A DNA stretch of 64,000 bases from Geodermatophilus sabuli (lineage in GTDB: Bacteria; Actinomycetota; Actinomycetes; Mycobacteriales; Geodermatophilaceae). Positions 3,551 through 34,385 of the stretch are shown piece by piece. The DNA lies in the NCBI RefSeq assembly GCF_900215145.1, contig NZ_OBDO01000001.1, positions 496,001-560,000 on the forward strand, in the 5' to 3' direction. Each line of letters opens with the position of its first letter. The stretch's first letter is position 1. The notes under the pieces were generated by a model. The model was given only the letters and a program-made list of their open reading frames with translations, was not told the origin of the DNA and did not search any database. The position numbers and the translations under genes are program-made.

Positions 3551-4420
3551 GTGCGGATCGCCTCCCTGCTGCCGGCCGCGACGGAGATGGTGACGGCGCT
3601 GGGGCTGGCCGACCGGCTGGTCGCGGTCACCTTCGAGTGCGCCGCCGAGGCGCGGGAGCGCTGCCCGGTCGTGGTGGACACCGCCATCCCGCCGGATCTC
3701 TCGCCGGGGCAGATCGACGCCTGGGTGCGGGACCGGGTGGGCGCGGGGCTGCCCCTGTACGAGCTCGACCGCGGGGCACTGGCCGCGGCCGGCCCCGAAC
3801 TCATCCTCACCCAGGACCTCTGCCGGGTGTGCGCGCTGCCGGCGGGCACGGTGGAGGAGGCCCGCCACGCCATCGGCACCGACGCGCAGGTGGTGTCGAT
3901 CGACCCGCACACCCTGGACGAGGTGCTCGACGCCCTCGCGACGGTGGGGCGCGCGGCCGGTGTCCCGGACGCCGCCGCGGCGCTCGTCGCGGGGCTCCGG
4001 GCGCGACTGGCCGCCGTCGAGCGCGCGGTCGCCGGCCGGCCGCGCCCCCGGGTGCTCCTCCTGGAGTGGACCGACCCGCCGTTCCTTCCCGGCCACTGGG
4101 TGCCCGAGCTCGTGCGCCGCGCGGGCGGCGAGCCCGTCGGCGCGGCCGAGGGGAGCCGGAGCGTGGCCGTGGACTGGGCGGAGCTGCCGGCCGCGGACCT
4201 CGTCGTCGTCGCGCCGTGCGGTCTGGACCTGGCGGCAGCGGTCGGGCAGTGCGCGGTCGTCGCCGAGCGCCTGCCCGGCGTCCCGCTGCTGGCGATCGAC
4301 TCGGCCCGCTACGTGGTGCAGGCCGGGCCCGCGCTCGTCGACGGCGTCGAGGCCCTGGCCTGGGCCCTGCACCCCGATGCCGTCCCCGAGCCACCGCCCG
4401 GTCGCGTCAGACGGCGCTGA
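3551..4420 (+). CDS. BtuF-like cobalamin/metal-chelate binding-fold protein, no signal peptide
   Basis: 289 residues. It begins directly with the RIASLLPAATE motif typical of the BtuF/FhuD periplasmic-binding fold, followed by an LILTQDLCRVCA segment of the cobalamin-binding-protein subgroup. No signal sequence or lipobox precedes the fold, so it is probably cytoplasmic, as many actinobacterial members are. No permease or ATPase genes are adjacent, so a role in vitamin import is unproven. Its end overlaps the convergent RibBA-like gene by 14 bases. GTG 3551 is the only sensible start because the fold begins there. Confidence 0.72.
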   Translation: MRIASLLPAATEMVTALGLADRLVAVTFECAAEARERCPVVVDTAIPPDLSPGQIDAWVRDRVGAGLPLYELDRGALAAAGPELILTQDLCRVCALPAGTVEEARHAIGTDAQVVSIDPHTLDEVLDALATVGRAAGVPDAAAALVAGLRARLAAVERAVAGRPRPRVLLLEWTDPPFLPGHWVPELVRRAGGEPVGAAEGSRSVAVDWAELPAADLVVVAPCGLDLAAAVGQCAVVAERLPGVPLLAIDSARYVVQAGPALVDGVEALAWALHPDAVPEPPPGRVRRR

Positions 4421-5495
4421 GCCCTCCGTCGGCGGCCGGTGACGCGCAGCCGACCACCGGGACCCCGAACCGTCCGAGGCCGATGGCGTCCCCGGGGTCG
4501 TCGGCGAGCACGACCGCCGAGCGGACGCCCAGGTCCAGCAGGACGTGCGCGGCCACCCGGTGGGTGGACCGCGACCCGCGACCGCCGGACGGCGCACCCG
4601 CGTGGCGCTCGCACGGCGACCGTCTCCCGCGCAGGTAGACGACGACGCCCTGCCCGGACGCCCGCACGGCGGCGAGCGCGGCGTCCAGGTCGCCGGCGCA
4701 GCGGCACTGCACGGAGCCCAGCAGGTCGCCGGCGAGGCACTCGACGTGGACGCGGACGGGCACCGCCTCCCCGCCGGCGACGTCCCCGGCGACCACCGCG
4801 AGGTGTTCCGTGCCGTCGACGTCGTCGACGTAGGCGTGGCTCCGGAACCGCCCGTGCCGGTTGGTCACGGAGGCGGTCCCGACCGGGCGCACCGGTGACT
4901 CGACCCGCTCCCGGTGCCGGACGACGTCCGCCACGCTCAACGCAGCCAGGACGTCCAGCGCGGGGGGCAGCGGCTCCGACGCCGGCTCCGGGACGGCCGC
5001 GAACACCGCCGCGGGGACCAGTCCCGCCAGCCGGCACAGGTCGGCCGCGGCCTCGGGCGGCGCGGGGCGCTCCAGCACGCCACCCGGACGCACCCGCACC
5101 GGCACGACGTGGCCCGGGCGGACGAGGTCCCCCGGCGTCGTCGACGGGTGCGCCAGCGCACGGGCGGTGCGGGCTCGCTCGAGGGCGGAGATCCCCGTCG
5201 TCAGCCCGGCGCAGGCGTCGACCGACACGGCGAAGGCCTCGCGGCCGGCGTCGTCGGCCTCCATCAGGGGGATGTCGAGCGCGGCGAGCCGTTCCCCCTC
5301 GAGGGCGACGCAGGCGAAGCCACTGCTGTAGCGCACCAGGAGCGCCATGGTCCGGCCGGTCACCCGCTCGGCGGCGATCACCAGGTGCCGCTCGCCGGCG
5401 GAGGTCAGGACCACCGGCTCGCCGCGGCGCAGCGCAGCCAGGGCGCCGGGCACGTCGTCGACCCGCTCCGGCCGCTCGGCCAGCACCGCGGTCAC
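4407..5495 (-). CDS. degenerate RibBA paralogue (DHBP synthase / GTP cyclohydrolase II-like)
   Basis: GTG 5495 overlaps the FMN-reductase stop, giving 362 residues. The N-terminal half follows the DHBP synthase fold (a GHVVPVR motif is present) but lacks the acidic EDEGD loop: residues about 28-37 read VVLTSAGERH. The His-Thr-Glu catalytic motif is replaced by PAPPEA. The C-terminal half keeps the three zinc cysteines of GTP cyclohydrolase II (Cys253, Cys264, Cys266). However, the EGRGIGL loop is replaced after residue 290, and about 35 residues including the RDY catalytic region are missing. Both activities look lost. It sits with LLM1 and FMN reductase, so a flavin-related non-catalytic or new role is possible; decay to a pseudogene is the alternative. 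A canonical copy lies at 59660-60937. Confidence 0.7.
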   Translation of the reverse strand: MTAVLAERPERVDDVPGALAALRRGEPVVLTSAGERHLVIAAERVTGRTMALLVRYSSGFACVALEGERLAALDIPLMEADDAGREAFAVSVDACAGLTTGISALERARTARALAHPSTTPGDLVRPGHVVPVRVRPGGVLERPAPPEAAADLCRLAGLVPAAVFAAVPEPASEPLPPALDVLAALSVADVVRHRERVESPVRPVGTASVTNRHGRFRSHAYVDDVDGTEHLAVVAGDVAGGEAVPVRVHVECLAGDLLGSVQCRCAGDLDAALAAVRASGQGVVVYLRGRRSPCERHAGAPSGGRGSRSTHRVAAHVLLDLGVRSAVVLADDPGDAIGLGRFGVPVVGCASPAADGGLSAV

Positions 5496-6145
5496 CTCGG
5501 GCCGCCCTGCGGACCGAGGAGCGCGGGCGCTCGCCGTGCCGACACCAGTTCGGCGAACCGGACGACCTCGTCGGCGACCGTGTGCAGCTGTTCCAGGACC
5601 CGCTGGTCGCTGCACGCCCCATCCGCGAAGCTGCACTGCGCCGAGTTGATGGCGGCTCCGTAGGGCGTGACCCACCCGCGCAGTGCGTGGACGATCGCCC
5701 GCAGCGCGGTCAGCGTCGTCACCGAGGCCTGCCAGCCGTAGGCCGTGACGATCAGCCCGACGGACCGGTCGGCGAGGTAGGGCAGCCGGTCCGCGCGCAT
5801 GTCCTCGGTGTAGTCGAGGGCGTTCTTCACCAGGCCCGAGAGCGAGCCGTGGTAGCCCGGCGAGGCGACGATCACCCCGTCGGCCCGGCGCAGCTCGGCG
5901 ACGAGCTCCTCGGCCACCGGGCCACCGCTCCCGGACTCCGGGGCGTACATCGGCAGCTGGGCCAGCTCCGCGCCGGTGAAGACGCGGGTGGTGGCGCCCA
6001 GCGCCTCGGCACGACGCATCGCGGTGCGCAGCGCCTGCTCGCTGGACGAGCCCGGCCGCACGGTCCCGCCGATGCCCACGACGTGCAGTGGCCGTACCAC
6101 GCCCTCTGCCCGGTCCGGTGGGGCGGCGGTCGCCGCCGCGTCCAC
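5492..6145 (-). CDS. NAD(P)H-dependent FMN reductase (SsuE/MsuE-like)
   Basis: 217 residues with the flavodoxin-like FMN reductase fold. An FMN-phosphate loop (GTVRPGSSSEQAL) lies near residue 27, and the SPGYHGSLSGLVKNALDY segment is diagnostic of the family. It reduces FMN with NAD(P)H and hands FMNH2 to a partner monooxygenase. GTG 6145 lies one base after the LLM1 stop and its own stop overlaps the RibBA-like start, so the three genes form one translationally coupled operon. This strongly suggests LLM1 is FMNH2-dependent rather than F420-dependent. A shorter start inside the first 20 residues is possible. Confidence 0.88.
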   Translation of the reverse strand: MDAAATAAPPDRAEGVVRPLHVVGIGGTVRPGSSSEQALRTAMRRAEALGATTRVFTGAELAQLPMYAPESGSGGPVAEELVAELRRADGVIVASPGYHGSLSGLVKNALDYTEDMRADRLPYLADRSVGLIVTAYGWQASVTTLTALRAIVHALRGWVTPYGAAINSAQCSFADGACSDQRVLEQLHTVADEVVRFAELVSARRAPALLGPQGGPR

Positions 6146-6146
6146 G

Positions 6147-7397
6147 TCAGGCCCCCGCCGGCACGGCCGGCCGGCTCGCCGCGGCCACCCGCTGCTGGCT
6201 GACCTGCGGCGTCCAGTGGTCGGGCTGGTCGGCCCACAGGTCGCGCAGCTGCGGGATGACCTGGGTGCCGAACAGGTGGGTGTTCTCCGCCGCGGTCTCC
6301 TCGGGGAGGTTGCCCATGTGCAGCGACGCGATGAGCTGGCCGACGCGCAGCTCGGTCGCCAGCTCGCGCAGCCGCTGGGCCACCCGGTCAGGGGTGCCGG
6401 CGACGATGTAGCCCTTCTCGTCGTACTCCCAGAAGCTCATCTCGCCCTTGACCGCGCGCTCGCGGTCCGCGGCCGCCGCCGGGTCGCTGGTGTTCTTGAG
6501 CGTCTCGGCGAGGGAGCGCGTCGAGTTGTAGCCGGGCGGGGTGGCGAATCGCATGGAGGGGTTGCGGACCCGCTGGAAGTACTTGACCGCCTCGTAGTAC
6601 TTCGCCTCGGCCTCGGCGTCGGTGTCGGCCACGCAGACCAGCTGGGTGAACGCCATCCGGTGCGGGTTCATGTCCCCGTCGTGGGCGGCGACGTAGTCCC
6701 AGTAGCCGTCCACCAGGGGCTTGGCGGCCTGCAGCCCGGAGAAGGACAGGTGGCCGTAGCAGTAGTTCTCCCGCGTCACCAGCTCCCAGGTCTCGACGCT
6801 GCTGGAGCCCGGGATCCAGATGGGGGGCCGCTGCTGGATCGGTCGCGGCCACAGGTTGACGTAGCGCAGCTGGGTGTACTTGCCGTTGAACGCGAACGGC
6901 TCCCGCTCCTCCCAGGCCCGCAGGACCAGCCGGCGCGCCTCGTGGAAGCGGTCGCGCAGCTCCACCGGCGTCCGGGCGTAGGCGAAGGCCGAGTCCATCG
7001 GCGTCCCGAAGACGAAGCCGGCGATGAGGCGGCCCTCGGACAGGCAGTCGAGGTAGGCCATCTCCTCCGCGACGCGGGTCGGCGGGTTGTACAGCGCCAG
7101 CGAGTCGCCGATCACCAGGATCGCCGCGTTCTGCGTGCTGCTCGCGAGGCTCGCGGCCAGCAGGTTGGGCGACGGCGTCATCGCGAACGGCGTCTGGTGG
7201 TGCTCGTTGACCGCGAGGCCGTCGAAGCCGTCCCGGTCCGCCTGCTGCATGAGGCGGATGAACATCCGGTAGTTCTCGCCCACCCGGCCGGAGTCGGCCA
7301 TGTCGATGGGGCTGTCCACCCACCCGCCCTGGCCGGGCGCCGGGAACCGGTCGGGGAGGTCGTCGTAGGTCACTTCCGCGAACCAGTGGAACTTCAT
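6147..7397 (-). CDS. luciferase-like flavin-dependent monooxygenase (LLM1)
   Basis: 416 residues from ATG 7397, which is preceded by GATGAGG; the open frame upstream is non-coding. It has a bacterial-luciferase TIM-barrel: the start MKFHWFAE, an NEHHQTPFAMTPSPN segment, RVAEEMAYLDCLSEGR, and FNGKYTQLRYVNLWPRP. LLM2 (29329-30570) matches it closely from end to end. The family inserts one oxygen atom using FMNH2 and O2, for example in type II Baeyer-Villiger, desulfonating or terpene monooxygenase reactions. First gene of the operon with FMN reductase, and divergent from two GAF-PucR regulators. Substrate unknown; the island context (SDRs, hydrolases, CoA ligase) favours ketone oxidation. Confidence 0.86.
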   Translation of the reverse strand: MKFHWFAEVTYDDLPDRFPAPGQGGWVDSPIDMADSGRVGENYRMFIRLMQQADRDGFDGLAVNEHHQTPFAMTPSPNLLAASLASSTQNAAILVIGDSLALYNPPTRVAEEMAYLDCLSEGRLIAGFVFGTPMDSAFAYARTPVELRDRFHEARRLVLRAWEEREPFAFNGKYTQLRYVNLWPRPIQQRPPIWIPGSSSVETWELVTRENYCYGHLSFSGLQAAKPLVDGYWDYVAAHDGDMNPHRMAFTQLVCVADTDAEAEAKYYEAVKYFQRVRNPSMRFATPPGYNSTRSLAETLKNTSDPAAAADRERAVKGEMSFWEYDEKGYIVAGTPDRVAQRLRELATELRVGQLIASLHMGNLPEETAAENTHLFGTQVIPQLRDLWADQPDHWTPQVSQQRVAAASRPAVPAGA

Positions 7398-7751: not shown

Positions 7752-9800
7752 ATGACGAGCGCACCAGTCGCGATGTCGAGTCGCCGCCTGCCGGGGGGCG
7801 ACATCCCCGCCGCCCGCAGCGGCGTCCCCCCGCGCAGCGGAGCCGCGGAGAGCGCGGCGCACCGGGCCATCGCCCACCTGCTGCACCTGCTCGCCGAGGA
7901 GGCGCCCACCGAGGCGTTCGACCGGCTGTCCCGCTGCATGCTGGACCCCGCGGTCTCCACCGACCGGGACCTCGCGCTGACCGCGCTGGCGCGGGCCGGG
8001 CGGGTCCGGGAGCTGCTGGCCCACCGCAAGCACCGGGAGAAGGAGACGCAGGCGCTGTACGAGAGCGCCCGCGACCTCGCCTCGCTGCGCGACGGCGAGC
8101 AGGTCCTGGAGGCCATCCTGCAGCGGACCCGTCAGCTCCTCGGGACCGACGCCGCCTACCTGGCCCTGGTCGACCCCGACACCGGCGAGGCCTACATGCG
8201 GCTGACCCTCGGCACGGTGACCACGCCGATCCAGTCGGTCCGTCAGCGGCCGGGCCAGGGCATCGGCGGCCGCATCATCCGGACCGGCCGGCCCTACGCG
8301 ACGGCCAACTACCAGCAGGACCGGAGCCTGGACCGGGATCCCTCCGTCACCGACGCCGTGGCCGAGGACGGGATCGTCGGCATCATCGGCGCGCCGCTGC
8401 GGCTCGGTCGGGACGTGGTCGGTGCCCTGTTCGGCGCCAACCGGTACGAGCGCGCGTTCGAGCCGTCGGAGGTCGCGCTGCTGTGCTCGCTGGCCGACCA
8501 CGCGGCGATCGTCATCGAGAACGTGCGGCTGTTCGAGCGCGCCGAGCGCACGGCGGCGGAGCTGCGGGCGGCCAACGCCCAGCTGCGCGTGCAGGGGCAG
8601 GCCCTGGAACGGGGCACGTCGGCGCACGGCCAGTTGATGCGGACGGTGCTGCGGCGGGGGGACCTCGCCGAGTTGATCGACGCGATCGGCGGCATCCTCG
8701 AGGGGGCCGTCGCGCTCGTCGACCCGAACGGCCAGGTGGTGGCCAGCACCGCGGCCGGCCCCGGCGCCGGCCTGCCCGCCGTGGGCACCGGCTGGGAGTC
8801 ACCGGCGACCACCGCCCGCCCGGGCGCGGCGCACCGGCTCGACGGGGCGGCCGACGACGCGACCGAGCGGTGGGCGGTGCCCGTCCAGGCGGGCCCGGAC
8901 TCCTTCGGGCACCTCGTGTTCGCCGCCGGCACGCCGCTGCTGGAGGCCGACGTGCGCATCCTCGAGCGCTCGGCGCAGACCGCGGCGCTCCTGCTCCTGA
9001 TGGAACGCCAGGCGGCCGTGGCCGAGCAGCACGTGCGCGGAGAGGTCATCGCCGACCTGCTCGCCGAGCGGGAGCCCCGCTGGGACTCCTTCTCCCGCAG
9101 GGCCAGGCGCGTCAGCGGCATCGACTTCGACGTGCCGCACTCGGTGCTGGTGCTCACCGCCGCCGGGGTGTCCCGGCGGCGCCTCCTCCGCGCCGCCGCC
9201 GACTACGCCGCCACGCGCCGCGGGCTGGCCAGCGAGCACGCCGGGAAGGTGGTCCTGCTGCTGCCCGAGGTCGACGGGGCCACCGCGGTCCGGGCGGTCA
9301 AGCCGCAGCTGGACCGCATGACCGGGGGGACGGTCACCTGCGGTGTCGCCGGGCCGGCCGCCTCGGCGGCCGCGGTGCGGCGGTTGCACCGGAGCGCGGA
9401 CCGCTGCCACCGCCTGTTGCTCGCCCTGGGGCGCGCGGGCCAGGCCGCCGGCGTCGAGGACCTCGGGGTCATCGGGCTGGTGCTCAGCGGCACCTCACGC
9501 GAGCAGCTGGAGCAGGTGCTCGCCGAGACCCTGGGCCCGATCGTCCGCTACGACGAGCAGCACGGGACGCCGCTGGTCGAGACGCTGTGGGTGTTCTTCG
9601 CGGCCGGGCAGAACCCGCGCGCCGCGGCCCGTTCCCTCCAGGTGCACCCCAACACCGTCTACCAGCGCCTCGAGCGGGTCGACGCCGTGCTCGGGCACCG
9701 GACGTGGCGCGAGCCGCAGGGGGCGCTGACCATGCAGATGGCCCTGCAGCTGCACCGGGTCGTCGAGCAGGTCCCGATCGAGGTGCTGGTCGGCTCGTGA
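7752..9800 (+). CDS. GAF domain / PucR-type helix-turn-helix regulator 1
   Basis: 682 residues from ATG 7752, chosen because GGAGGTGAT sits nine bases upstream; the frame is open further upstream without support. A helical N-terminus is followed by a GAF domain (about 98-266: YESARDLASLRDG to ADHAAIVIENVRLF). A central GGDEF-like/CdaR-type region follows, then a C-terminal PucR HTH (about 620-670: NPRAAARSLQVHPNTVYQRLERV). Such proteins activate catabolic operons on sensing small ligands in the GAF pocket. The stop overlaps the start of a second, clearly paralogous gene. Likely targets are the divergent LLM1 operon and possibly the downstream island. Confidence 0.82.
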   Translation: MTSAPVAMSSRRLPGGDIPAARSGVPPRSGAAESAAHRAIAHLLHLLAEEAPTEAFDRLSRCMLDPAVSTDRDLALTALARAGRVRELLAHRKHREKETQALYESARDLASLRDGEQVLEAILQRTRQLLGTDAAYLALVDPDTGEAYMRLTLGTVTTPIQSVRQRPGQGIGGRIIRTGRPYATANYQQDRSLDRDPSVTDAVAEDGIVGIIGAPLRLGRDVVGALFGANRYERAFEPSEVALLCSLADHAAIVIENVRLFERAERTAAELRAANAQLRVQGQALERGTSAHGQLMRTVLRRGDLAELIDAIGGILEGAVALVDPNGQVVASTAAGPGAGLPAVGTGWESPATTARPGAAHRLDGAADDATERWAVPVQAGPDSFGHLVFAAGTPLLEADVRILERSAQTAALLLLMERQAAVAEQHVRGEVIADLLAEREPRWDSFSRRARRVSGIDFDVPHSVLVLTAAGVSRRRLLRAAADYAATRRGLASEHAGKVVLLLPEVDGATAVRAVKPQLDRMTGGTVTCGVAGPAASAAAVRRLHRSADRCHRLLLALGRAGQAAGVEDLGVIGLVLSGTSREQLEQVLAETLGPIVRYDEQHGTPLVETLWVFFAAGQNPRAAARSLQVHPNTVYQRLERVDAVLGHRTWREPQGALTMQMALQLHRVVEQVPIEVLVGS

Positions 9801-11716
9801 CGGGCTCCGCAGCGCGCCCCGACCGGACCGGCCGGCCGGGCACCCCCGCCGACGTGCTGACCCGGCTGCTCGACGTGCTCGCCGACGAGCGGCCGGTCGC
9901 GGAGATCGACGCCCTCGCCACCCGGGTGCGCAATGCCCCGGACGTCCCCGACCGGCACGTGCTGCTGACCGCCGCCGAGGACGCCCGCCGCATCCGGCAC
10001 CTGCTGGCGCAGCGCGAGCGGCGCGAGGCGGAGATGCAGGCGCTGTACGAGACCGCGCGCGACCTCACCTCGCTGCGCGACGTCGACGGCACGCTGCACG
10101 CGATCGTGGACCGGGTGCGCCGGCTGCTGAGGGCAGACCTCACCTACATCGCGCTGGTCGACGAGGAGACCGGCGACGCGTACATGCGGGTCACCTCGGG
10201 GGCCAGGACGGCGCCGATCGAGACGGTGCGCCAGCGCCCGGGGATGGGCATCGGTGGCCGGGTCATCGAGACCGGGCAGGCCGTCGCCACGGCGGACTAC
10301 CTGGCCGACCCGCGCCTCACGCTCTCGCCCGCGGTCGCGGCCGCCGTCCGCGAGGAGGGCATCGTCGGCATCGTCGGCGTCCCGATGAGGCTCGGCTCCC
10401 GGGTCATCGGCGCACTGTTCGCGGCCGACCGGCGCCGGCGCACCTTCGACCAGGCCGAGATCGCGCTGCTGTCCTCCCTCGCCGACCACGCGTCCGTGGT
10501 CATGGAGAACGCCCGCCTGTTCGCCGGGATGCGGGCCTCCACCCGCGAGCTGCGCGAGGTCAACAGCCGGCTGTCCGAGCAGCGGCACGTGCTGGAGCGG
10601 GCCAGCGCCGCGCACGAACAGCTGATGCCCCTCGTGCTCACCCGCGCCGACCTCGTCCAGTTCGCCGAGACGGTCAGCCGGCTCCTGGGCGGCTCCGTCG
10701 AGCTGCTGGACACCGACGCGCGCGTGCTGGCCGCGGCGGCCGGGCCCCGGCCGGTTCCCGGGCCCGCCGACGGGGAGGACGGCGGCCCCGCGCCGCGGTC
10801 GGCCGTCGTCCGCGTCCGGGCGGGCAAGGAGACCTTCGGCAGCCTGCGCCTGACCCGCGCCACCCCGATCAGCGAGGCGGAGACGCGGACGCTGGAGCGG
10901 GCGGCGCAGACCGCGGCGCTCCTGGTGCTGATGGAGCGCCAGACCGCGCTCCTGGAGGAGGAGCTGCGCGCCGAGCTGCTCGACGACCTGCTGGCCGACG
11001 GGACGCCGGACCCGGACGTGGTGCACCGCCGGGCGGAGCGGCTGGGCGTGCTGCGTCCCGGTGAGCCGCAGGTGCTCGTCGTCTGCTCCGCGGGGACGGA
11101 GGTACCGCTGTCCTCCGTGCTGGCGGCCGCCGCCGGCCTCGCCGGCCGGTCCCGCGGCCTGGCCAGCGAGCACGGCGGGTCGGTCGTCCTGCTCCTGCCC
11201 GGCACCGACGGCGGGAGCACCGCCCGGACCGTCGCCGCCGAGCTGGGCCGGGCCGTGGGCGTGGCGGTGACCGCGGGCGCCTCGGGGTCCGCGGAGACCG
11301 GGACGGACCTGCACCCGTTGCACCGGGAGGCCGCGCGCAGCCACCGGCTGCTGCTCGCCCTCGGGCGGGAGGGCGACGGCGCGACCCTGCAGGAGCTGGG
11401 CATCGTCGGTCAGCTGCTCGAGGGGGCGAACCCCGGGCAGGTGCAGGGGGTCGTCGACCGCGTCCTCGGGCCGTTGCTCGCCTACGACGCCGAGAACTCC
11501 GCGGCCCTGTTCGGCACCGTGGAGGCCTACTTCGCCTCCGGGCAGAGCCCCCCGGAGGCCGCGCGCCGCCTGCGGGTGCACGTCAACACCGTCTACCAGC
11601 GCCTCGAGCGCGTCGACCGGGTCCTCGGTGGCACCGGCTGGCGCGAGCCGCAGGGGGCGCTGGAGGTGCAGATGGCGCTGCAGCTGTACCGCGCCACCGT
11701 CCGGTCCGACCGCTGA
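9797..11716 (+). CDS. GAF domain / PucR-type helix-turn-helix regulator 2 (tandem paralogue)
   Basis: 639 residues from GTG 9797 inside the GTGA overlap with regulator 1; the long frame upstream of this point is a shadow of regulator 1. The layout repeats regulator 1: helical start, GAF domain (about 80-245), middle domain, and C-terminal PucR HTH (SPPEAARRLRVHVNTVYQRLERV). The two proteins align along their whole length, with the HTH almost identical and the GAF more divergent. That suggests one DNA site and two different ligands, or a heteromeric regulator (inference). A strong hairpin at its stop codon ends the unit. Confidence 0.82.
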   Translation: MTGSAARPDRTGRPGTPADVLTRLLDVLADERPVAEIDALATRVRNAPDVPDRHVLLTAAEDARRIRHLLAQRERREAEMQALYETARDLTSLRDVDGTLHAIVDRVRRLLRADLTYIALVDEETGDAYMRVTSGARTAPIETVRQRPGMGIGGRVIETGQAVATADYLADPRLTLSPAVAAAVREEGIVGIVGVPMRLGSRVIGALFAADRRRRTFDQAEIALLSSLADHASVVMENARLFAGMRASTRELREVNSRLSEQRHVLERASAAHEQLMPLVLTRADLVQFAETVSRLLGGSVELLDTDARVLAAAAGPRPVPGPADGEDGGPAPRSAVVRVRAGKETFGSLRLTRATPISEAETRTLERAAQTAALLVLMERQTALLEEELRAELLDDLLADGTPDPDVVHRRAERLGVLRPGEPQVLVVCSAGTEVPLSSVLAAAAGLAGRSRGLASEHGGSVVLLLPGTDGGSTARTVAAELGRAVGVAVTAGASGSAETGTDLHPLHREAARSHRLLLALGREGDGATLQELGIVGQLLEGANPGQVQGVVDRVLGPLLAYDAENSAALFGTVEAYFASGQSPPEAARRLRVHVNTVYQRLERVDRVLGGTGWREPQGALEVQMALQLYRATVRSDR

Positions 11717-26380: not shown

Positions 26381-27172
26381 ATGCGTCTCGACGGCAAGGT
26401 CGCGGTCATCACCGGCGGCGGTTCCGGCATCGGCGCCGCCACGGCGGAGGCGTTCACCCGCGAGGGCGCCCGCGTGGTGATCGCCGACATCGACGGCGCC
26501 GCGGGGGAGTCCGTGGCCAAGGAGCTGCGGGCGGCCGGGGCCACGATCGACTTCCTCGAGGCCGACGCCTCCCGGCAGGCCGACCTCGAGCGGGTCATCG
26601 GGTTCGCGACCAGCACCCACGGCCGGCTCGACGTCCTCCACAACAACCACGTCTCCTTCGAGGCGGGGCGGATCGGCGACCTCACCTGGGACGGGCTCCG
26701 CCGCTCACTGGACGTCGGGCTGGTCTCGTACTGGTACGCGATCAAGCTGGCCCTGGAGCCGATGCTGGCCCAGGGGCGCGGCTCGATCGTGAACACCGCC
26801 TCGGTCTCCGGCCTGGCCGGTGACTTCGGGCTGGGTGCCTACAACATGCTCAAGGCCGGCGTCGTCAACCTCTCGCGGGTCACCGGCATCGAGTACGCCC
26901 GCAAGGGCGTGCGGTGCAATGCCGTCTGCCCCGGCCCCATCGGCACCCCGCCGATCGACCGGCTGCACGACGCCGCCCCGGCGACGTGGGAGGCCATCCG
27001 CGAGGCGATCCCGATGGGCCGCTACGGGCGCGCCGAGGAGATCGCCAACGCGGTCCTCTTCCTCGCCTCCGACGAGTCCAGCTTCGTCACCGGCACCCAC
27101 CTGGTCGCCGACGGCGGGCTGTGGGCGCACTCCGGGATGCCGCCGATCGGCGGCCTGGGCCCGGACTTCTGA
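26381..27172 (+). CDS. short-chain dehydrogenase/reductase (SDR)
   Basis: 263 residues from ATG 26381 (RLDGKVAVITGGGSGIG), with GAGAGGAAG eight bases upstream; an earlier start in the same frame lacks a ribosome site. Catalytic Ser in NTASVSG and Tyr-x3-Lys in YNMLKAG are present. The NNHVSFEAG segment replaces the usual NNAG motif, which is unusual but keeps the Asn. VIADID after strand 2 favours NAD. It starts a plus-strand operon with a mini-ORF, hydrolase, another SDR, EthD protein and LLM2, consistent with alcohol/ketone conversion. Confidence 0.88.
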   Translation: MRLDGKVAVITGGGSGIGAATAEAFTREGARVVIADIDGAAGESVAKELRAAGATIDFLEADASRQADLERVIGFATSTHGRLDVLHNNHVSFEAGRIGDLTWDGLRRSLDVGLVSYWYAIKLALEPMLAQGRGSIVNTASVSGLAGDFGLGAYNMLKAGVVNLSRVTGIEYARKGVRCNAVCPGPIGTPPIDRLHDAAPATWEAIREAIPMGRYGRAEEIANAVLFLASDESSFVTGTHLVADGGLWAHSGMPPIGGLGPDF

Positions 27173-27203: not shown

Positions 27204-27350
27204 ATGACCACCGAGCCGTGCGGCGTCCGGGTGACGCCGCACCTGCGAGATCCGTCGGCCGACCACTGGACCCCCGTGGTCAGTCAGCACCGGGTCGCGG
27301 CCAACGCGCCCCGGATCCCCGTTCCGACCCGTCAGGAGAGCACGCGATGA
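27204..27350 (+). pseudogene. 48-codon remnant of an LLM monooxygenase C-terminus
   Basis: ATG 27204 follows an AGGGAGG-type ribosome site, and the TGA overlaps the hydrolase ATG (ATGA at 27347). Residues 8-35 match the extreme C-termini of LLM1 and LLM2: TPHLRD, then DHWTPVVSQHRVAAN, against PQLRD and DHWTPQVSQQRVAAA in LLM1. No barrel part remains. It is best read as the 3' scrap of a third LLM copy that lost about 370 codons. Because start, frame and coupling to the next gene are intact, it may still be translated and serve as a coupling leader for the hydrolase (inference). Confidence 0.7.
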
Positions 27351-28120
27351 CCACGCTGGAGATCCCGAACATCGGGACGTTCGACGTCGAGCTGTGGGAG
27401 GAGGGCAGCGGGGCACCGCTGCTGTACCTGCACGGCTACGAGCGCCACCCCGGCGCCGCCGGCTTCCTCAAGCGGCTGGCGGAGAGCCGCCGCGTGCTCG
27501 CCCCGGAGCTGCCGGGCTACGGGCGGTCCACCGGCTTCCAGAACTTCACCGACGTCATCGACGTCGCCCTCTACCACCGCGAGCTGGTGGAGTCCCTGGG
27601 GGTCGGGCAGGTCGACGTCGTCGGCCACTCCCTCGGCGGGATGTTCGCCGCCGAGCTGGCGGCCATCGCCCCCCAGCTGGTCCGCCGGCTCGTGCTGGTC
27701 AACGCCTTCGGCGTCTGGCTGGACGACGAGCCGGCGCTGGACCCCTTCGGCGCGGCGGCCGAGGTCAAGGCGGCCAAGTGGCACGGCGAGGCGCCCAAGC
27801 AGGAGCCGACGAACTTCGTGCCCGACCCGGACGACCCCCACGGGGCCATCCTGTTCAGCGCGCAGAACCTCGGCACGGCCACCAAGTTCATGTGGCCGAT
27901 CGCCGACCGCGGCCTGCGGCGGCGGCTGCCGCTGATCGACGCCCCGACGCTCGTCGTCCACGGCACCTCCGACGGGCTGCTCCCGGTGTCCTACGCCGAC
28001 GAGTTCGTCCGGCTGGTCCCGAACGCCGAGCTGGCCCTCATCGACGCCGCGGGCCACTACCCGATGGTCGAGCAGGAGGACGAGTTCGTGTCGGTGGTCG
28101 GCAAGTTCCTGGACGCCTGA
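27347..28120 (+). CDS. alpha/beta hydrolase
   Basis: 257 residues from ATG 27347, which overlaps the stop of the preceding mini-ORF. Nucleophile Ser95 in VVGHSLGG, acid Asp in HGTSDGLLPV, and base His in DAAGHYPM give a full triad; the oxyanion motif is LHGYERHPG. It resembles enol-lactone/ester hydrolases of catabolic gene sets. It sits between two SDRs and upstream of EthD and LLM2, where a lactone or ester made by Baeyer-Villiger oxidation would need hydrolysis (inference). Cytoplasmic. Confidence 0.87.
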   Translation: MTTLEIPNIGTFDVELWEEGSGAPLLYLHGYERHPGAAGFLKRLAESRRVLAPELPGYGRSTGFQNFTDVIDVALYHRELVESLGVGQVDVVGHSLGGMFAAELAAIAPQLVRRLVLVNAFGVWLDDEPALDPFGAAAEVKAAKWHGEAPKQEPTNFVPDPDDPHGAILFSAQNLGTATKFMWPIADRGLRRRLPLIDAPTLVVHGTSDGLLPVSYADEFVRLVPNAELALIDAAGHYPMVEQEDEFVSVVGKFLDA

Positions 28121-28145: not shown

Positions 28146-28916
28146 ATGGGCAGGGTCGAGGGCAAGGTCGCGCTGGTCACCGGTGGCGCGGCGGGTATCG
28201 GCCGGGAGACGGCGGTCACCCTGGCACGAGAGGGCGCGAGGGTGGTCATCGCGGACCTGAACCTGGACGGCGCCAAGGAGACCGCCGCGATGATCGGGGA
28301 CGCCGCGACCCCGGTGTACTTCAACGCGACGGAGCAGCAGTCGATCCAGGAGCTGGTCGAGGCGGTCCTGGCCGAGCACGGCCGGGTGGACGTCATCCAC
28401 AACAACGCCGCGCTGGTCGGGCCCGACGCCTGGTTCACCGACTCCACGGTGGTCGACACGTCGATCGAGATGTGGGACCGCGCGTTCGCGACCAACGTGC
28501 GCAGCATCTTCCTGATGTGCAAGTACGCGCTGCCGCACATGGTCGAGAACGGCGGCGGGTCGATCATCAACATGGCCTCCGTCGGCGGCCTGCGGGGCAG
28601 CACGGCGCTGACCGCCTACGGGACGACGAAGGCCGCCGTCATCGGGCTGACCCGGTACATCGCCGCCCAGCACGGCAAGCAGGGGGTGCGCTGCAACGCG
28701 ATCGCCCCCGGGGTCATCCAGACCCAGCAGCTGCTCGACGCCGTGCCCGACCTGCCGACCGCGGCCCTGGCCACGGTCGCCTCACCGCGGGTGGGGCTGC
28801 CCAGCGACATCGCAAACATGGTGCTGTTCCTCGCCTCGGACGAGTCGGCCTTCGTCAACGGCGAGACCTACCGCGTCGACGGCGGCGCGATGGAGGCCGG
28901 CTCCAGCGGCCGCTGA
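28146..28916 (+). CDS. short-chain dehydrogenase/reductase (SDR)
   Basis: 256 residues with TGGAAGIG, NNAA, catalytic Ser in NMASVGG and Tyr-x3-Lys in YGTTKAA. The C-terminus has the NGETYRVDGG motif of classical SDRs. An Asp after strand 2 (IADLN) favours NAD. The start has CGGAGGAGGAG upstream, 25 bases after the hydrolase. Third complete SDR of the island; the three differ enough to act on different alcohols or steps. Confidence 0.9.
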   Translation: MGRVEGKVALVTGGAAGIGRETAVTLAREGARVVIADLNLDGAKETAAMIGDAATPVYFNATEQQSIQELVEAVLAEHGRVDVIHNNAALVGPDAWFTDSTVVDTSIEMWDRAFATNVRSIFLMCKYALPHMVENGGGSIINMASVGGLRGSTALTAYGTTKAAVIGLTRYIAAQHGKQGVRCNAIAPGVIQTQQLLDAVPDLPTAALATVASPRVGLPSDIANMVLFLASDESAFVNGETYRVDGGAMEAGSSGR

Positions 28917-28997: not shown

Positions 28998-29303
28998 GTG
29001 ATCAAGCTGACCGTCCTGTACGACCGCCCCTCCGACGTCGAGGCGTTCGAGGCCTACTACATGGCCAACCACGTTCCGCTGGCCCGCAAGGTGCCGGGCC
29101 TCAACGACATCGAGGTCACGCTGTTCCAGCCGGGTCCCGACGGCTCGCTGCCGAAGTACCACCTCATGGCCGAGCTGACGTTCGACGACCCGGCGACCAT
29201 GCAGGCCGGTCTGGCCTCGGAGGAGGGCAAGGCGCTCGGCGCCGACGTCGCCAACTTCCCCGGCACGACCTCGGCCACCCACCTCGTCGGCATCGTCGCC
29301 TGA
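28998..29303 (+). CDS. EthD-family protein (dimeric alpha/beta barrel)
   Basis: 101 residues from GTG 28998, with CTGGAGGGC upstream. The YDRPSDVEAFEAYYMANHVPLARKVPG start and the central LMAELTFDD strand are typical of EthD. The His in NHVPLA is the conserved one. EthD proteins are small ferredoxin-like-fold dimers found in ether, aromatic and polyketide pathways. Some relatives are lactone isomerases or decarboxylases; EthD itself is needed for fuel-ether oxidation with unknown chemistry. It sits 25 bases before LLM2, so a helper or product-handling role for the monooxygenase is likely (inference). Confidence 0.82.
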   Translation: MIKLTVLYDRPSDVEAFEAYYMANHVPLARKVPGLNDIEVTLFQPGPDGSLPKYHLMAELTFDDPATMQAGLASEEGKALGADVANFPGTTSATHLVGIVA

Positions 29304-29328: not shown

Positions 29329-30570
29329 ATGAAGTTCCACTGGTTCGCCCAGCAGTACTACACCAAGCTGCCCCCGGACTACGGCGACGTGAACCGCAGC
29401 TCGTGGGTGACGGCGCCCATCAACGTCACCGACCCCGCCCAGGTGGGCGAGGACTACCACATGTACATCCGGCTGATGCAGCAGGCCGACGGGCTGGGCT
29501 GGGACTCGTTGCTGCTCAACGAGCACCACCAGACGTCGCTGGCGATGACGCCGTCGCCGAACCTGATCGCCAGCATCCTCGCGGCGACGACGGAGAACGC
29601 GGCGATCGCGCTGTGCGGCAACTCCCTGGCGCTGTACAAGCCGCCGATCCGGGTGGCCGAGGAGATCGCGATGCTGGACTGCCTCTCCGGCGGCCGCATC
29701 ATCGCCGGCATCGTGTTCGGGACCCCCATGGACACCGCGTTCTCCTACGGGGTCCCGCCGATCGAGCTGCGCGAGCGCTTCCACGAGGCCCGGGACCTGA
29801 TCACCCGCGCCTGGAAGGCCGAGGAGCCCTTCGCCTTCAACGGCAAGTACACGCAGCTGCGCTACGTCAACCCGTGGCCGCGGCCCATCCAGGAGGAGCT
29901 CCCGGTCTGGATCCCCGGCAGCGGGAGCCCGGAGACCTGGGACGTCGTCAACGCGCTGGACTACTGCTACGGCTATCTCTCCTTCTCGGGGAAGCAGAGC
30001 GCCGAGCCCATCGTGAAGGGGTTCTGGGACTACACCGAGAGCCAGGGCGGCAACATGAACCCCAACCGCATGGCCTTCACCCAGGTGATCTGCTGCGCCG
30101 ACACCGACGAGGAGGCCGAGCGGCAGTACGCCGATGCGGTCAAGTACTTCTACCGGCAGAACCCCACGGCCATCGAGTTCGCGACCCCGCCGGGGTACAA
30201 CACCCCCGCGTCGATCCGGAGCACCCTCGACCGGGCCAAGGTGATCAGCAACGAGGAGCGGCTCAAGGCCGCCCGCGGCGAGCTCAGCTTCTGGGAGTAC
30301 GACGAGCTGGGCTACATCATCGCCGGCACCCCGGAGCGGGTGGCGCAGCGCGTGCGGGAGCTGGCGACCGACCTGCGGATCGGCCAGCTGATCACCTGCA
30401 TGCACGTCGGCAACCTCCCCGAGGAGGTCGCGGCGGAGAACAACCGGCTGTTCGGCACCGAGGTCATGCCCCAGCTGCGTGACCTGTGGTCGGACCAGGA
30501 GGACCGCTGGACGCCGAAGGTCTCCCAGGAGCGGGTGGCCGCGAAGTTCGGCAGCGGGCTGCCCCGGTAG
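29329..30570 (+). CDS. luciferase-like flavin-dependent monooxygenase (LLM2)
   Basis: 413 residues, co-linear with LLM1 (6147-7397): same MKFHWFA start, NEHHQTSLAMTPSPN, IPGSGSPETW and FWEYDE segments, and the same tail. The N-terminal 30 residues differ most. It uses reduced flavin and O2; the only FMN reductase seen is in the LLM1 operon and may serve both. It lies at the end of the SDR-hydrolase-SDR-EthD operon, with a strong terminator behind it. A type II Baeyer-Villiger role fits its neighbours, but other LLM reactions (hydroxylation, desulfurisation) cannot be excluded. Confidence 0.87.
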   Translation: MKFHWFAQQYYTKLPPDYGDVNRSSWVTAPINVTDPAQVGEDYHMYIRLMQQADGLGWDSLLLNEHHQTSLAMTPSPNLIASILAATTENAAIALCGNSLALYKPPIRVAEEIAMLDCLSGGRIIAGIVFGTPMDTAFSYGVPPIELRERFHEARDLITRAWKAEEPFAFNGKYTQLRYVNPWPRPIQEELPVWIPGSGSPETWDVVNALDYCYGYLSFSGKQSAEPIVKGFWDYTESQGGNMNPNRMAFTQVICCADTDEEAERQYADAVKYFYRQNPTAIEFATPPGYNTPASIRSTLDRAKVISNEERLKAARGELSFWEYDELGYIIAGTPERVAQRVRELATDLRIGQLITCMHVGNLPEEVAAENNRLFGTEVMPQLRDLWSDQEDRWTPKVSQERVAAKFGSGLPR

Positions 30571-30854: not shown

Positions 30855-32039
30855 ATGTCGCAGAACAGTCGGATCGTCGTGCTGGGCGGCGCCCGGACCC
30901 CGGTGGGCAGCTTCGGCGGCGCCCTGAAGGACGTGCCGGCGCACGAGCTCGGCGCCACGGCCGCCCGGGCCGCGCTGGAGCGCACCTCGGTCGCGCCGGA
31001 GGACGTCGACGAGGTCGTCATGGGCTGCATCGGCCAGGTCGGCCCGGATGCCTACAACGCCCGGCGGGTGGCCCTGGCCGCGGGGCTGCCCGCCCGGACC
31101 CCGGCGCACACGGTCAACCGGCTGTGCGGCTCCGGGCTGCAGGCGGTGTGGTCGGCGGCGATGCAGATCCGCTGGGGGGCGGCCCGGGTCGCGCTCGCCG
31201 GTGGCGACGAGTCGATGTCGCGGATGCCGTTCTACGACTTCGGGGCGCGCAACGGCTACCGGCTGGGCGACCGCACGCTGGTCGACGGCACGGTCATGAT
31301 GCTCACCGACCCCTTCCACGACATCCACATGGGCGTGACCGCCGAGCGGGTCGCCGAGAAGTACGACATCAGCCGCGAGGCGCAGGACGAGTTCGCGCTG
31401 GAGTCCCAGCGCCGCGCCGCCACGCCCGAGGCGAAGGCGGTCTTCGACGAGGAGATCACGCCGGTGTCCACCGGTGGGCGCCGGCCGACCACGGTCGCCG
31501 TTGACGAGCACCCCAAGCCCGGCACCACGGCGGAGGCGCTGGCCGCGCTCCGGCCTGCGTTCGCCGCCGGCGGCACGGTCACGGCGGGCAACGCCTCGGG
31601 GATCAACGACGGCGGGGCCGCGCTGGTGCTCACCACCGAGGAGGCCGCCCGCGACCGCGGCGCCACCGGGCTGGTCGCGCTGGAGGCGGTGACCACCGCG
31701 GCGCTGGAGCCCGAACTCATGGGCTACGCCCCGGTGCTGGCGCTGCGGGCGCTGTTCGAGCAGACCGGGACCACGCCGGCCGACATCGGCACCGTCGAGC
31801 TGAACGAGGCCTTCGCCGCGCAGGCCGTGGCCTGCGTCCGCGACGCCGGCCTGGACCCGGAGCGCACCAACCCCTACGGCGGGGCGATCGCGCTGGGGCA
31901 CCCCGTCGGCGCGACCGGCGCGATCCTGACCCTGCGCGTGGTGCAGGACCTGATCCGGCGCGACCTGGAGCTCGGCGTCGTGTCGATGTGCATCGGCGGC
32001 GGCCAGGCACTGGCCGCCCTCTTCCGCCGCATCGACTGA
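30855..32039 (+). CDS. thiolase (acetyl-CoA acyltransferase)
   Basis: 394 residues from ATG 30855, with GAGGAAGAG upstream; the open frame further upstream is unsupported. The nucleophilic Cys is in NRLCGSGLQAV, the His in ALGHPVGATGA and the second Cys in SMCIGGGQA. The family length is normal. It cleaves 3-oxoacyl-CoA with CoA, the last step of beta-oxidation, or runs the reverse condensation. A terminator follows before the acyl-CoA dehydrogenase gene, so it may have its own promoter, but the function belongs with the CoA-dependent end of this pathway. Confidence 0.93.
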   Translation: MSQNSRIVVLGGARTPVGSFGGALKDVPAHELGATAARAALERTSVAPEDVDEVVMGCIGQVGPDAYNARRVALAAGLPARTPAHTVNRLCGSGLQAVWSAAMQIRWGAARVALAGGDESMSRMPFYDFGARNGYRLGDRTLVDGTVMMLTDPFHDIHMGVTAERVAEKYDISREAQDEFALESQRRAATPEAKAVFDEEITPVSTGGRRPTTVAVDEHPKPGTTAEALAALRPAFAAGGTVTAGNASGINDGGAALVLTTEEAARDRGATGLVALEAVTTAALEPELMGYAPVLALRALFEQTGTTPADIGTVELNEAFAAQAVACVRDAGLDPERTNPYGGAIALGHPVGATGAILTLRVVQDLIRRDLELGVVSMCIGGGQALAALFRRID

Positions 32040-32045
32040 CCCCAC

Positions 32046-32142: not shown

Positions 32143-33369
32143 GTGAGCACCCTCCAGGCCACCACCGGCGCCGGCGACCGGCCCGGTGCGCCCGACGTGC
32201 CCGACCTCGTCGCGCGGACACGGGAGTTCGTCCGGGAGGTCGTCCTGCCGGTGGACGACCGGTTCGACGGGGACGTGACCGCCGCAGGCGGGGACGGCCT
32301 GCGCCGGGAGCTGCAGGCGGCCGCGCGCGAGCGGGGCCTGCTGGCACCGCACGCACCGGTCGAGTTCGGCGGGCTCGGGCTGTCGATGACGCAGCGGGCC
32401 CGGGTGTTCGAGGCGGCCGGCTACTCGGTGTTCGGCGGGCTGGCGATCAACGTCGCGGCGCCGGACGAGGGCAACGTGCACCTGCTGGCGCACGTCGCCA
32501 CCCCGGCACAGCAGCAGGAGTACCTGGCCCCGCTGGTGGCGGGGGAGGTGCGCTCGGCGTTCGCGATGACCGAGCCGGCGCCCGGGGCGGGGTCGGACCC
32601 GTCGGCACTGGCGACGACGGCGTCCCGGGTGCCCGGGGGGTGGCGGATCGACGGGCGCAAGACGTTCATCACCGGCGCCGACGGGGCGGGCTTCTTCATC
32701 GTGATGGCCCGCACCAGCGGGGAGCCGGGCGCGCGCGGCGGCGGCACGATGTTCCTCGCCCCGGCCGGTGCACCCGGCATCGAGGTGGGCCGGCACGTGC
32801 CGACGATGGACCGCTCGATGGTCGGCGGGCACTGCGAGGTGGTCTTCGACGGGCTCGTCGTCCCCGACGACGCGGTGCTGGGAGAGGTCGACCAGGGCTT
32901 CGCCAACGCCCAGGTGCGGCTGGGGCCGGCGCGGATGACCCACGTCATGCGCTGGCTGGGCGCCGCCGTGCGGGCGCACGAGGTCGCGGTGGAGCACGCG
33001 ACGGCGCGCCGTGGCTTCGGCAGCGCGATCGCCGACCTGGGGTTGGCGCAGCAGTTGATCGCGGACAACGAGATCGACCTCGCCGCGACCCGGGCCCTGC
33101 TCGACGTGGCGTGCGCGGCGCTGGACGCCGGGTCGTCGGCCGGCCAGGAGACCTCGATCGCCAAGACCTTCGGCGGCGAGGCGATCGGCCGGGTCGTGGA
33201 CCGGGCGATGCAGCTGTGCGGGGGGCTGGGGGTGTCGGCGGACCTGCCGATCGCCCGCATCGCCCGCGAGGTGCGCCCGTTCCGGGTCTACGACGGGCCC
33301 TCGGAGGTGCACCGGTTCGCCATCGCCAAGCGGGCGGTCCGGGCCGCCCGGTCGCGGACGGCGTCGTGA
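32143..33369 (+). CDS. acyl-CoA dehydrogenase family protein, ACAD10/11-like
   Basis: 408 residues from GTG 32143, with GTGAGGAGAAC upstream. FAD-binding acyl-CoA dehydrogenase fold: AFAMTEPAPGAGSD, the KTFITGADGAG loop, and a C-terminal helical domain. Instead of the usual YEGT catalytic region it has YDGPSEVHRF (Asp384 in DGP). This is the pattern of the ACAD10/11 and LvaC group, which act on 4-phosphorylated hydroxyacyl-CoAs rather than performing a plain alpha-beta dehydrogenation. The stop overlaps the start of an APH-type kinase, the same two activities that are fused in human ACAD10/11 and adjacent in the Pseudomonas levulinate operon. Confidence 0.87.
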   Translation: MSTLQATTGAGDRPGAPDVPDLVARTREFVREVVLPVDDRFDGDVTAAGGDGLRRELQAAARERGLLAPHAPVEFGGLGLSMTQRARVFEAAGYSVFGGLAINVAAPDEGNVHLLAHVATPAQQQEYLAPLVAGEVRSAFAMTEPAPGAGSDPSALATTASRVPGGWRIDGRKTFITGADGAGFFIVMARTSGEPGARGGGTMFLAPAGAPGIEVGRHVPTMDRSMVGGHCEVVFDGLVVPDDAVLGEVDQGFANAQVRLGPARMTHVMRWLGAAVRAHEVAVEHATARRGFGSAIADLGLAQQLIADNEIDLAATRALLDVACAALDAGSSAGQETSIAKTFGGEAIGRVVDRAMQLCGGLGVSADLPIARIAREVRPFRVYDGPSEVHRFAIAKRAVRAARSRTAS

Positions 33370-34385
33370 CCGGCCTGCCGGGTCTGGACCTGGACGCGCT
33401 GCACGCGCACCTGGCCGCCCGCGGGGTCGACCTCGCCGGCCCCCTACGCGGGGAGCTGATCGCCGGCGGCCGGTCCAACCTGACCTTCGCGGTGACCGAC
33501 GGGTCGTCCCGGTGGGTGGTGCGCCGTCCGCCGCTGGCCGGCCTCACCGCCTCGGCACACGACATGGCCCGGGAGCACCGGGTCACCAGTGCGCTGCAGG
33601 GGACCGAGGTGCCCGTCGCCCGGCCGATCAGCCTGTGCGAGGACGACACGGTGCTGGGCGCGCCCTTCACCGTCGTGGAGTGGGTGGACGGCGTGGTCGT
33701 CCGCGACCAGGACGAGCTGGCCGCCCTCTCCGACGACGCGGTGCGGCGCACCACCGCCGGGCTGGTCGAGGTGCTCGTGGCGCTGCACGCGGTCGACGTC
33801 GACGCCGTGGGGCTGCGCGGCTTCGGCCGGCCGGAGGGCTTCCTCACCCGGCAGGTGGCGCTGTGGCGGCGGCAGTGGGACTCCGTCCGCACGCGGGAGT
33901 CCGCCGACCTCGAACGGCTGCACGCCCTGCTCGTCGACCGGGTGCCGGCCGCGGGGGAGGTCGCCGTCGTGCACGGGGACTACCGCATCGACAACGCCAT
34001 CCTCGACCGGACCGACCCGGGGACGGTCCGTGCCGTCGTCGACTGGGAGCTGTCCACTCTCGGTGACCCGCTGACCGACGTCGCGCTGATGTGCGTCTAC
34101 CGGCACCCGGCCCTCGACGTGGTCCTCGGCATCCCCGCGGCGTGGACCAGCCCCCGGCTGCCCGCACCCGACGCCCTCGCCGAGGCCTACACCCGCGAGT
34201 CCGACCGCGACCTCGGCGACTGGCCGTTCTACCTGGGGCTGGCCCACCTGAAGCTCGCCGTCATCGCCGCGGGCATCGCCCACCGGGCGCACGCGGGCGC
34301 CGACGCCGGCCGGGACGCCCGCCGCGCGGCCGAGGCCGTGCCCGACCTCGTCGCCGACGGCCTGTCGGCTCTCGCACGCCGATGA
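33366..34385 (+). CDS. APH-type kinase, probable hydroxyacyl-CoA kinase (LvaA / ACAD10-11 N-domain-like)
   Basis: 339 residues from GTG 33366 in a GTGA overlap with the dehydrogenase gene; the longer upstream frame is its shadow. Protein-kinase-like fold: the GGRSNLTF nucleotide loop near residue 36, Arg-Arg-Pro after it, the catalytic loop HGDYRIDN (His203, Asp205, Asn210) and the metal site DWE (Asp226). It belongs to the phosphotransferase group paired with acyl-CoA dehydrogenases. Established relatives phosphorylate the hydroxyl of 4-hydroxyacyl-CoA so that phosphate can be eliminated. Co-translation with the dehydrogenase supports that reaction here; chain length and position of the hydroxyl are unknown. 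Confidence 0.86.
   Translation: MTGLPGLDLDALHAHLAARGVDLAGPLRGELIAGGRSNLTFAVTDGSSRWVVRRPPLAGLTASAHDMAREHRVTSALQGTEVPVARPISLCEDDTVLGAPFTVVEWVDGVVVRDQDELAALSDDAVRRTTAGLVEVLVALHAVDVDAVGLRGFGRPEGFLTRQVALWRRQWDSVRTRESADLERLHALLVDRVPAAGEVAVVHGDYRIDNAILDRTDPGTVRAVVDWELSTLGDPLTDVALMCVYRHPALDVVLGIPAAWTSPRLPAPDALAEAYTRESDRDLGDWPFYLGLAHLKLAVIAAGIAHRAHAGADAGRDARRAAEAVPDLVADGLSALARR

Follow-up and report, generated by a model that had tools for sequence, protein, structure and literature searches.

Oxygen insertion by luciferase-like monooxygenases (LLMs) and removal of hydroxyl groups by phosphorylation and elimination are steps that we found described only apart. Among the oxygenases, an LLM of the pdc cluster oxidises progesterone according to the available part of its report (PMC12239570), and for SAR202 bacteria an SDR (short-chain dehydrogenase/reductase), then a type II Baeyer-Villiger monooxygenase (BVMO) and then lactone opening were predicted, as stated in the accessible portion of the source (PMC5395668). 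Among the eliminating enzymes, ACAD10 in mammalian cells forms a phospho-intermediate from 4-hydroxyhexanoate, and not from 5- or 6-hydroxyhexanoate, in the part of PMC11342911 at hand. Here we describe an island of ~30 kb (4407-34385) in a stretch of 64,000 nucleotides of the soil actinobacterium Geodermatophilus sabuli (hereafter the window; contig NZ_OBDO01000001.1, positions 496,001 to 560,000), whose genes include both LLMs and a kinase-dehydrogenase pair of the ACAD10/ACAD11 type. We give an even chance to the reading that the genes of this island act together in the breakdown of one class of alicyclic or branched secondary alcohol or ketone.

Using our own gene calls with Pfam and NCBIfam, we recovered every gene listed by the original prediction: a Zn-dependent alcohol dehydrogenase, three complete SDRs, two LLMs, a flavin mononucleotide (FMN) reductase, two alpha/beta hydrolases (ABH1 and ABH2), an EthD protein, an AMP-dependent CoA ligase, a thiolase, an acyl-CoA dehydrogenase (ACAD) overlapping an APH-type kinase, and an OppBCDF importer with two binding proteins. 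The calls came from our own script and start codons are uncertain; the caller, trained on the window with its high GC content, missed genes in loci poorer in GC (none was called in locus L092, and the LLM of L055 was left uncalled). In addition, the island holds a RibBA-like gene, two PucR-type regulators, a DHA2-type MFS transporter and an SDR remnant that had not been listed before.

From gene identities, synteny, signature residues and predicted fold, we infer the substrate class, the LLM reaction, the order of steps and the role of the importer as follows. The Opp importer would take up the compound, the Zn-dependent alcohol dehydrogenase and the SDRs would convert alcohols to ketones, and the FMN reductase would deliver FMNH2 to LLM1 and LLM2, which would insert oxygen next to the carbonyl in a type II Baeyer-Villiger-like reaction and so form lactones or esters. 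These products would be opened by the two alpha/beta hydrolases, the CoA ligase would activate the hydroxy acid, and the thiolase, together with general beta-oxidation, would shorten the hydroxyacyl chain; with the hydroxyl on carbon 4, the APH kinase would phosphorylate it and the ACAD would eliminate the phosphate to leave an enoyl-CoA. In this reading, oxygenase and hydrolase would form the core of the cluster, to which a CoA ligase and, as an option, a 4-hydroxyacyl-CoA module are added; the two PucR-type regulators perhaps control it. If true, the island joins LLM oxygen insertion to hydroxyl removal by phosphorylation and elimination, and shows a route of oxygenated alicyclic carbon into beta-oxidation in bacteria; the same question was raised for ocean Chloroflexi, whose related oxygenases are without a proven substrate in the available part of PMC5395668.

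Oxygenases, hydrolases and the probable phospho-elimination pair

LLM1 (6147-7397, minus strand) and LLM2 (29329-30570, plus strand) are PF00296 proteins with 62% identity to each other, and both carry an NEHH motif that is invariant in 57 aligned rows. The presence of an LLM alone means little, since the G. sabuli genome holds 34 PF00296 matches. In a tree of 68 LLMs, LLM1 (10 rows), LLM2 (21 rows) and a third LLM (7 rows) form separate clades with supports of 99-100 (100/100 each for LLM1 and LLM2), and the window proteins group with those of G. ruber, next to Pseudonocardia. Loci L024 and L056, near-duplicates of L022 and L054, were left out of this tree and of the hydrolase counts given below. 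The predicted model of LLM1 (pLDDT 87.6) is a luciferase-like TIM-barrel oxygenase by PF00296 and Foldseek, for which the top Foldseek matches were RslO1, the Agrobacterium protein 2i7g, the type II BVMO 4uwm and PuwE; a sequence search of solved structures with phmmer placed 2i7g, luciferase and PuwE first, followed by RslO1, MsnO8 and 3,6-diketocamphane monooxygenase (DKCMO). RslO1 was considered as proof of Baeyer-Villiger activity and discarded, as the JACS 2026 paper (PMC12903851), in its available part, treats RslO9 and not RslO1; that part also states that BVMO labels can be mistaken.

The FMN reductase (5492-6145, minus strand; NAD(P)H-dependent, PF03358, FMN_red) directly adjoins LLM1. 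In Streptomyces carpinensis, a Flavin_Reduct protein follows immediately after LLM2, and in Pseudonocardia kunmingensis a nitroreductase-family protein lies farther down the same gene run, so that two flavin-reductase families, FMN_red and Flavin_Reduct, were found in cluster runs. This gene context fits FMNH2 dependence of the LLMs as putative two-component oxygenases.

ABH1 (14990-15793, minus strand) is a PcaD-like putative lactonase with Ser, Asp and His motifs, whose best NCBIfam matches are PcaD-type enol-lactonases, all under their cut-offs, and ABH2 (27347-28120, plus strand) was assigned by Pfam/NCBIfam and a motif check. Such hydrolases are frequent beside LLMs. Counting as ABH-like those genes that matched ABH1 or ABH2 of the window by BLASTP, we found one directly adjoining and on the same strand for 40 of 76 called LLM genes (in 74 loci) and at most three genes away for 59; farther than three genes from an LLM, ABH-like genes numbered 10 of 655. 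Hydrolases in this position fit lactone or ester hydrolysis downstream of the oxygenase. A putative two-component FMNH2 oxygenase paired with hydrolases, as proposed originally, is supported by the reductase next to LLM1 and by these counts. For the Baeyer-Villiger step itself, LLM sequence and predicted fold are compatible with that chemistry and do not prove it.

The ACAD10/11-LvaC-type dehydrogenase (32143-33369, plus strand) and the APH-type kinase of the ACAD11/LvaA type (33366-34385, plus strand) are adjacent, the end of the first overlapping the start of the second by 4 bases. Among solved structures, the best matches were 4hr3 and ACAD11 for the ACAD, and 3dxp, 9o56 and ACAD11 for the kinase. 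In mouse ACAD11, the available part of PMC12440821 gives the residues R626, H634 and R637 and the catalytic D753; in an alignment read by eye, this Arg, His, Arg set and the catalytic Asp are matched in the window ACAD by RLGPARMTHVMR and YDGPSE (residues 259 and 383). The kinase, aligned to ACAD11 relatives, has its catalytic Asp and Asn in HGDYRIDN. ACADs of Pseudonocardia, Streptomyces and Nakamurella have the same residue set, and those of Sphingobium and Gemmobacter have it with small changes. Since the pair has these checked ACAD11-type residues, phospho-elimination of a 4-hydroxyacyl-CoA is its likely function, and the elimination module of the original prediction is borne out at this level.

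Recurrence of the cluster and competing readings

Searched for in other genomes, the gene set recurs. The LLM family was found at E <= 1e-60 in only 2 of 98 genomes (G. sabuli's own and 97 relatives), namely G. sabuli and G. ruber DSM 45317. In G. ruber, the window genes 6 to 30 stand in identical order with some extra genes interspersed, the 23 gene pairs share 75-98% identity, and the ratio of nonsynonymous to synonymous substitution rates (dN/dS) is 0.05-0.30 for 22 of them, the RibBA-like gene being considered separately below. No gene of the G. ruber flanks matches a flanking gene of the window, the sharing ending at 4407 and 34385. The patchy presence in the genus suggests that the island was acquired horizontally. 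Compared with the G. ruber island, which holds a third LLM between SDR2 and ABH2, a whole SDR where the window keeps 56 residues, and an additional SDR after LLM2, that of the window appears trimmed.

Farther away, the contig scan for LLM relatives kept the best 80 of 139 relatives, giving 76 loci, among which versions of the cluster are recognisable in Pseudonocardia, Streptomyces and Nakamurella. As an example, Pseudonocardia sp. MH-G8 and CNS-004 share a run of LLM1, ABH1, FMN reductase, RibBA-like gene, one gene, CoA ligase, one gene, ACAD and APH; in P. kunmingensis, the ACAD lies ~13 kb away from LLM1. Looser LLM-hydrolase pairs, often a single LLM followed by a hydrolase, extend to Proteobacteria and Chloroflexi. 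Among PLSDB plasmids, LLM1 matched 28 records, every one below 60% identity.

A number of observations weigh against the proposed reading of the island. The solved structures nearest to the LLMs are mixed (RslO1, an uncharacterised Agrobacterium protein, a type II BVMO and luciferases), neither LLM is named by an NCBIfam model above cut-off, 17 of the 76 LLM genes have no ABH-like gene inside three genes, and the EthD protein and the MFS transporter have no role in the proposed scheme. The LLM of pNL2 is only 25% identical to LLM1; this sole LLM of the plasmid, presumed to be the homologue of the progesterone-oxidising LLM that PMC12239570 names Saro_3594 (an old locus tag, unconfirmed), led us to reject a progesterone pdc-type cluster, of which no type I BVMO and no LuxR or TetR regulator is named in the island by Pfam/NCBIfam. 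The LLMs could instead perform other class C flavin chemistry, such as epoxidation, hydroxylation or C-N/C-S cleavage of a heterocycle; the hydrolases, like RutD and MhpC-type enzymes, would then attack amides, carbamates or ring-cleavage products. The missing NCBIfam name, the match of ABH1 to RutD (100 bits, under cut-off) and the presence of luciferase-fold enzymes with different activities in the Foldseek list would fit this alternative, which we nonetheless hold to be somewhat unlikely: Pfam/NCBIfam name no sulfonate, sulfone, amidase or ammonia-releasing gene in the island (an amidase gene lies only outside it, immediately beyond its edge at 2120-3469), DKCMO outranks the sulfonate monooxygenases in Foldseek, and among 18 phmmer matches SsuD and MsuD are absent and the sulfone enzyme SfnG comes last. 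Sulfur scavenging was rejected on the same absence of a named sulfonate or sulfone gene, and a levulinate operon as such found nothing supportive besides the kinase/ACAD pair.

Other adverse points concern the elimination step and its place in the cluster. The original prediction drew a continuous path from alcohol to enoyl-CoA, and this path has a gap: ACAD10 in mammalian cells makes no use of 5- or 6-hydroxyhexanoate in the available part of PMC11342911, so that the hydroxy acids of the usual ring lactones would need prior shortening. If the bacterial pair is equally strict, the 6-hydroxy acid expected from a six-ring ketone would first have to shed two carbons, a step that the thiolase would fit. 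The pair is also an optional part of the clusters by its distribution. In 18 genomes (19 hand-chosen of the 76 loci), an ACAD orthologue of at least 58% identity was found in 9, near LLMs in 6 and away from them in 3, with no such match in the other 9. G. sabuli itself has another ACAD-APH pair (84% and 78% identical to that of the island) in a different setting of CoA genes, ~60 kb before the window (locus L167, G000:C14:426000-445999), with no LLM of the island family and an LLM of a different kind ~17 kb off. No other part is exchanged as readily as the importer: P. dioxanivorans has an MFS gene instead, Gemmobacter a TRAP system and Sphingobium a TonB receptor, and in P. alaniniphila an MFS gene stands alongside Opp genes. 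The island might instead combine two or three modules that are independent of each other, an LLM/importer part and a general 4-hydroxyacyl-CoA module of thiolase, ACAD and APH brought next to each other by chance. This appears improbable to us: the second pair, the absence of the orthologue from half of the genomes and the 284 bases between LLM2 and the thiolase speak for separate modules, whereas Geodermatophilus, Pseudonocardia and Streptomyces all have these neighbours together, in differing gene orders, and ACADs with LvaC-type residues lie at most ~10 kb from an LLM in Sphingobium and Gemmobacter.

A RibBA-like gene in the oxygenase run

The gene at 4407-5495 (minus strand) encodes the two domains of RibBA, DHBP synthase (PF00926) and GTP cyclohydrolase II (PF00925), with the active-site motifs lost, and overlaps the FMN reductase gene by 4 bases. 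In RibBA, the DHBP synthase part relies on the metal loop DxxRENEGD, GHTEA and CEI, and the cyclohydrolase II part on GHEGRGIGL. All 10 aligned cluster copies (L056 and L072 were omitted from the alignment) have lost the metal loop, the histidine of GHTEA, the CEI stretch and GHEGRGIGL, while TGIS and PGH stretches are retained; six comparison rows keep the loop and GHTEA, two of them with GEI in place of CEI. The window protein scores 274 bits in NCBIfam, where the RibBA cut-off is 569. The predicted model (pLDDT 85) retains the RibBA fold. In 397 genomes of the order at E <= 1e-75, the 24 matches comprised the window protein and 23 copies that keep the loop, a cut-off that shortened copies of the RibBA-like gene would escape.

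Its placement varies within limits. Of the 10 aligned copies, 6 have the gene after the FMN reductase, and in L047 and L054 it comes directly after the hydrolase; L025 and L029 have it next to the hydrolase, the reductase being absent. All four copies inspected (window, G. ruber, L040 and L046) retain the stop-start overlap with the reductase gene. In Nakamurella and Gemmobacter, RibB or RibBA with an intact loop is found near the LLM, and for this reason the enzyme may still have been working when it was first recruited.

Two readings of this gene were weighed. The protein may serve the oxygenase operon as an accessory, related to flavin and without catalysis of its own. More specifically, it could be a conserved pseudoenzyme that holds or hands over FMN, or senses flavin or phosphorylated intermediates, for a two-component LLM in a pathway of oxygenative ring opening and phospho-elimination, a proposal that we rate as doubtful. 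Alternatively, it is merely a decaying extra riboflavin gene without function, which we judge quite possible, if a little short of an even chance. Decay is favoured by a dN/dS of 0.37 against G. ruber, the highest of the 23 gene pairs, and by a cyclohydrolase domain cut short or missing in 4 of the 10 aligned copies. However, this ratio is below 1, identical residues are lost in every copy while TGIS and PGH stay, and the overlap with the reductase is maintained. The split RibBA-like gene of Pseudonocardia sp. CNS-004 was dropped as a sign of decay, since the adjoining hydrolase and CoA ligase genes are split as well.

Further RibBA copies stand near LLM genes in the genus. The G. sabuli genome has five PF00926 genes, of which the housekeeping one is without an LLM nearby and the other four are with one (two of them inside the window). 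Among 47 PF00926 matches in 26 genomes, 38 were examined (33 in other genomes and 5 in G. sabuli), nine single-copy ones being left out. An LLM, detected with our own eight-sequence LLM profile, was found in the stretch of 0 of 17 housekeeping copies and 11 of 21 extra copies, the 11 falling in 5 of the 9 genomes with extra copies. The chance of such a split is ~3 in 10,000, calculated by hand with the copies treated as independent, which related genomes are not. Several stretches end at contig ends, the housekeeping label comes from neighbour lengths, and L151, one of the 21 extra copies, is an uncalled fragment. Within the window, an LLM besides LLM1 and LLM2 stands in a row with an AMP-dependent ligase and a RibBA whose motifs are intact (56646-60937). 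Elsewhere in the genus, RibB-domain genes without the exact metal-loop motif occur in L137, L140, L150, L155 and L158, the one of L155 near an LLM. If the RibBA-like protein is functional, it would be a new kind of flavin monooxygenase partner, and extra RibBA copies could mark operons of this LLM type.

Remaining genes, surroundings and described systems

Between LLM1 and the importer, the PucR-type regulator 1 (7773-9800, plus strand; GAF, GGDEF_2 and HTH_30 domains), which stands beside LLM2 in Pseudonocardia, is followed by the PucR-type regulator 2 (9797-11716, plus strand), assigned by Pfam. On the minus strand then come the acyl-CoA ligase (11777-13348; PF00501, NF006020 at 654 bits, slightly under the cut-off of 677) and the DHA2 efflux-like MFS transporter (13398-14894; TIGR00711 at 202 bits, under the cut-off of 230). 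On the plus strand, Pfam/NCBIfam assign OppB, OppC, OppD and OppF (16289-20394), the Zn-dependent alcohol dehydrogenase (20407-21447), SDR1 (21565-22362), SDR2 (26381-27172) and SDR3 (28146-28916), and farther on stand the EthD family protein (28998-29303; PF07110, TIGR02118 above cut-off) and the thiolase, an acetyl-CoA C-acyltransferase (30855-32039; TIGR01930 above cut-off). The two family-5 solute-binding lipoproteins of the importer (22665-24158 and 24731-26239, plus strand; Pfam) are 85% identical to each other and have SACGG lipobox-like starts. Between them lies the SDR remnant of 56 residues (24461-24631, plus strand), and because a whole SDR stands at this place in G. ruber, a unit of SDR and binding protein was probably duplicated and later partly deleted in the window.

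The genome of G. sabuli is GC-rich and 5.5 Mb in size. Just beyond the island, a second MftD-type protein is encoded at 35845-37155 on the minus strand (TIGR03966, 690 bits), with a further copy on contig C13 (716 bits). A mycofactocin-coupled SDR was considered and rejected, SDR1 scoring only 165 bits against the TIGR03971 cut-off of 300, and the neighbouring MftD is therefore probably unrelated. Farther along, an MFS transporter, an FAD-dependent monooxygenase, a homogentisate-dioxygenase-like protein and a fumarylacetoacetase-like hydrolase in a row (39853-45516) look like an ordinary aromatic ring-cleavage operon, and a sugar-binding-domain regulator, sugar-type ABC importer genes, a Zn-dehydrogenase and a mannitol dehydrogenase (46368-54461) look like an ordinary polyol cluster.

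Among the matches listed in the open-access literature (titles and beginnings of abstracts), no description of the combined pathway or of a RibBA-LLM pairing was found. The island resembles several known systems in part. Like the type II BVMOs DKCMO, which is among the top Foldseek matches of the LLM1 model, and the progesterone LLM of pdc (available part of PMC12239570), it would employ a luciferase-fold FMNH2 oxygenase with a separate flavin reductase; unlike them, its LLMs stand in a run with reductase, hydrolase and RibBA-like gene, and are candidate oxygenases of this type by sequence and fold. With LvaA/LvaC of the lva operon and with ACAD10/ACAD11, it shares an APH-type kinase and an ACAD with the catalytic Asp and the Arg, His, Arg set, but in contrast to the lva operon the pair stands beside LLMs, hydrolases and a CoA ligase, with no pointer to levulinate. 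The FMNO paralogues of SAR202 belong to the same LLM family (~44% identity in a SAR202 record, L088), and the island adds to the scheme predicted for them a kinase/ACAD elimination step, none being described in the available part of PMC5395668. Finally, the RibBA-like protein has the fold and domain order of RibBX (6mnz) and of plain RibBA (4i14), whereas, unlike both, it has also lost the RibB active-site motifs and its gene lies inside an oxygenase run.

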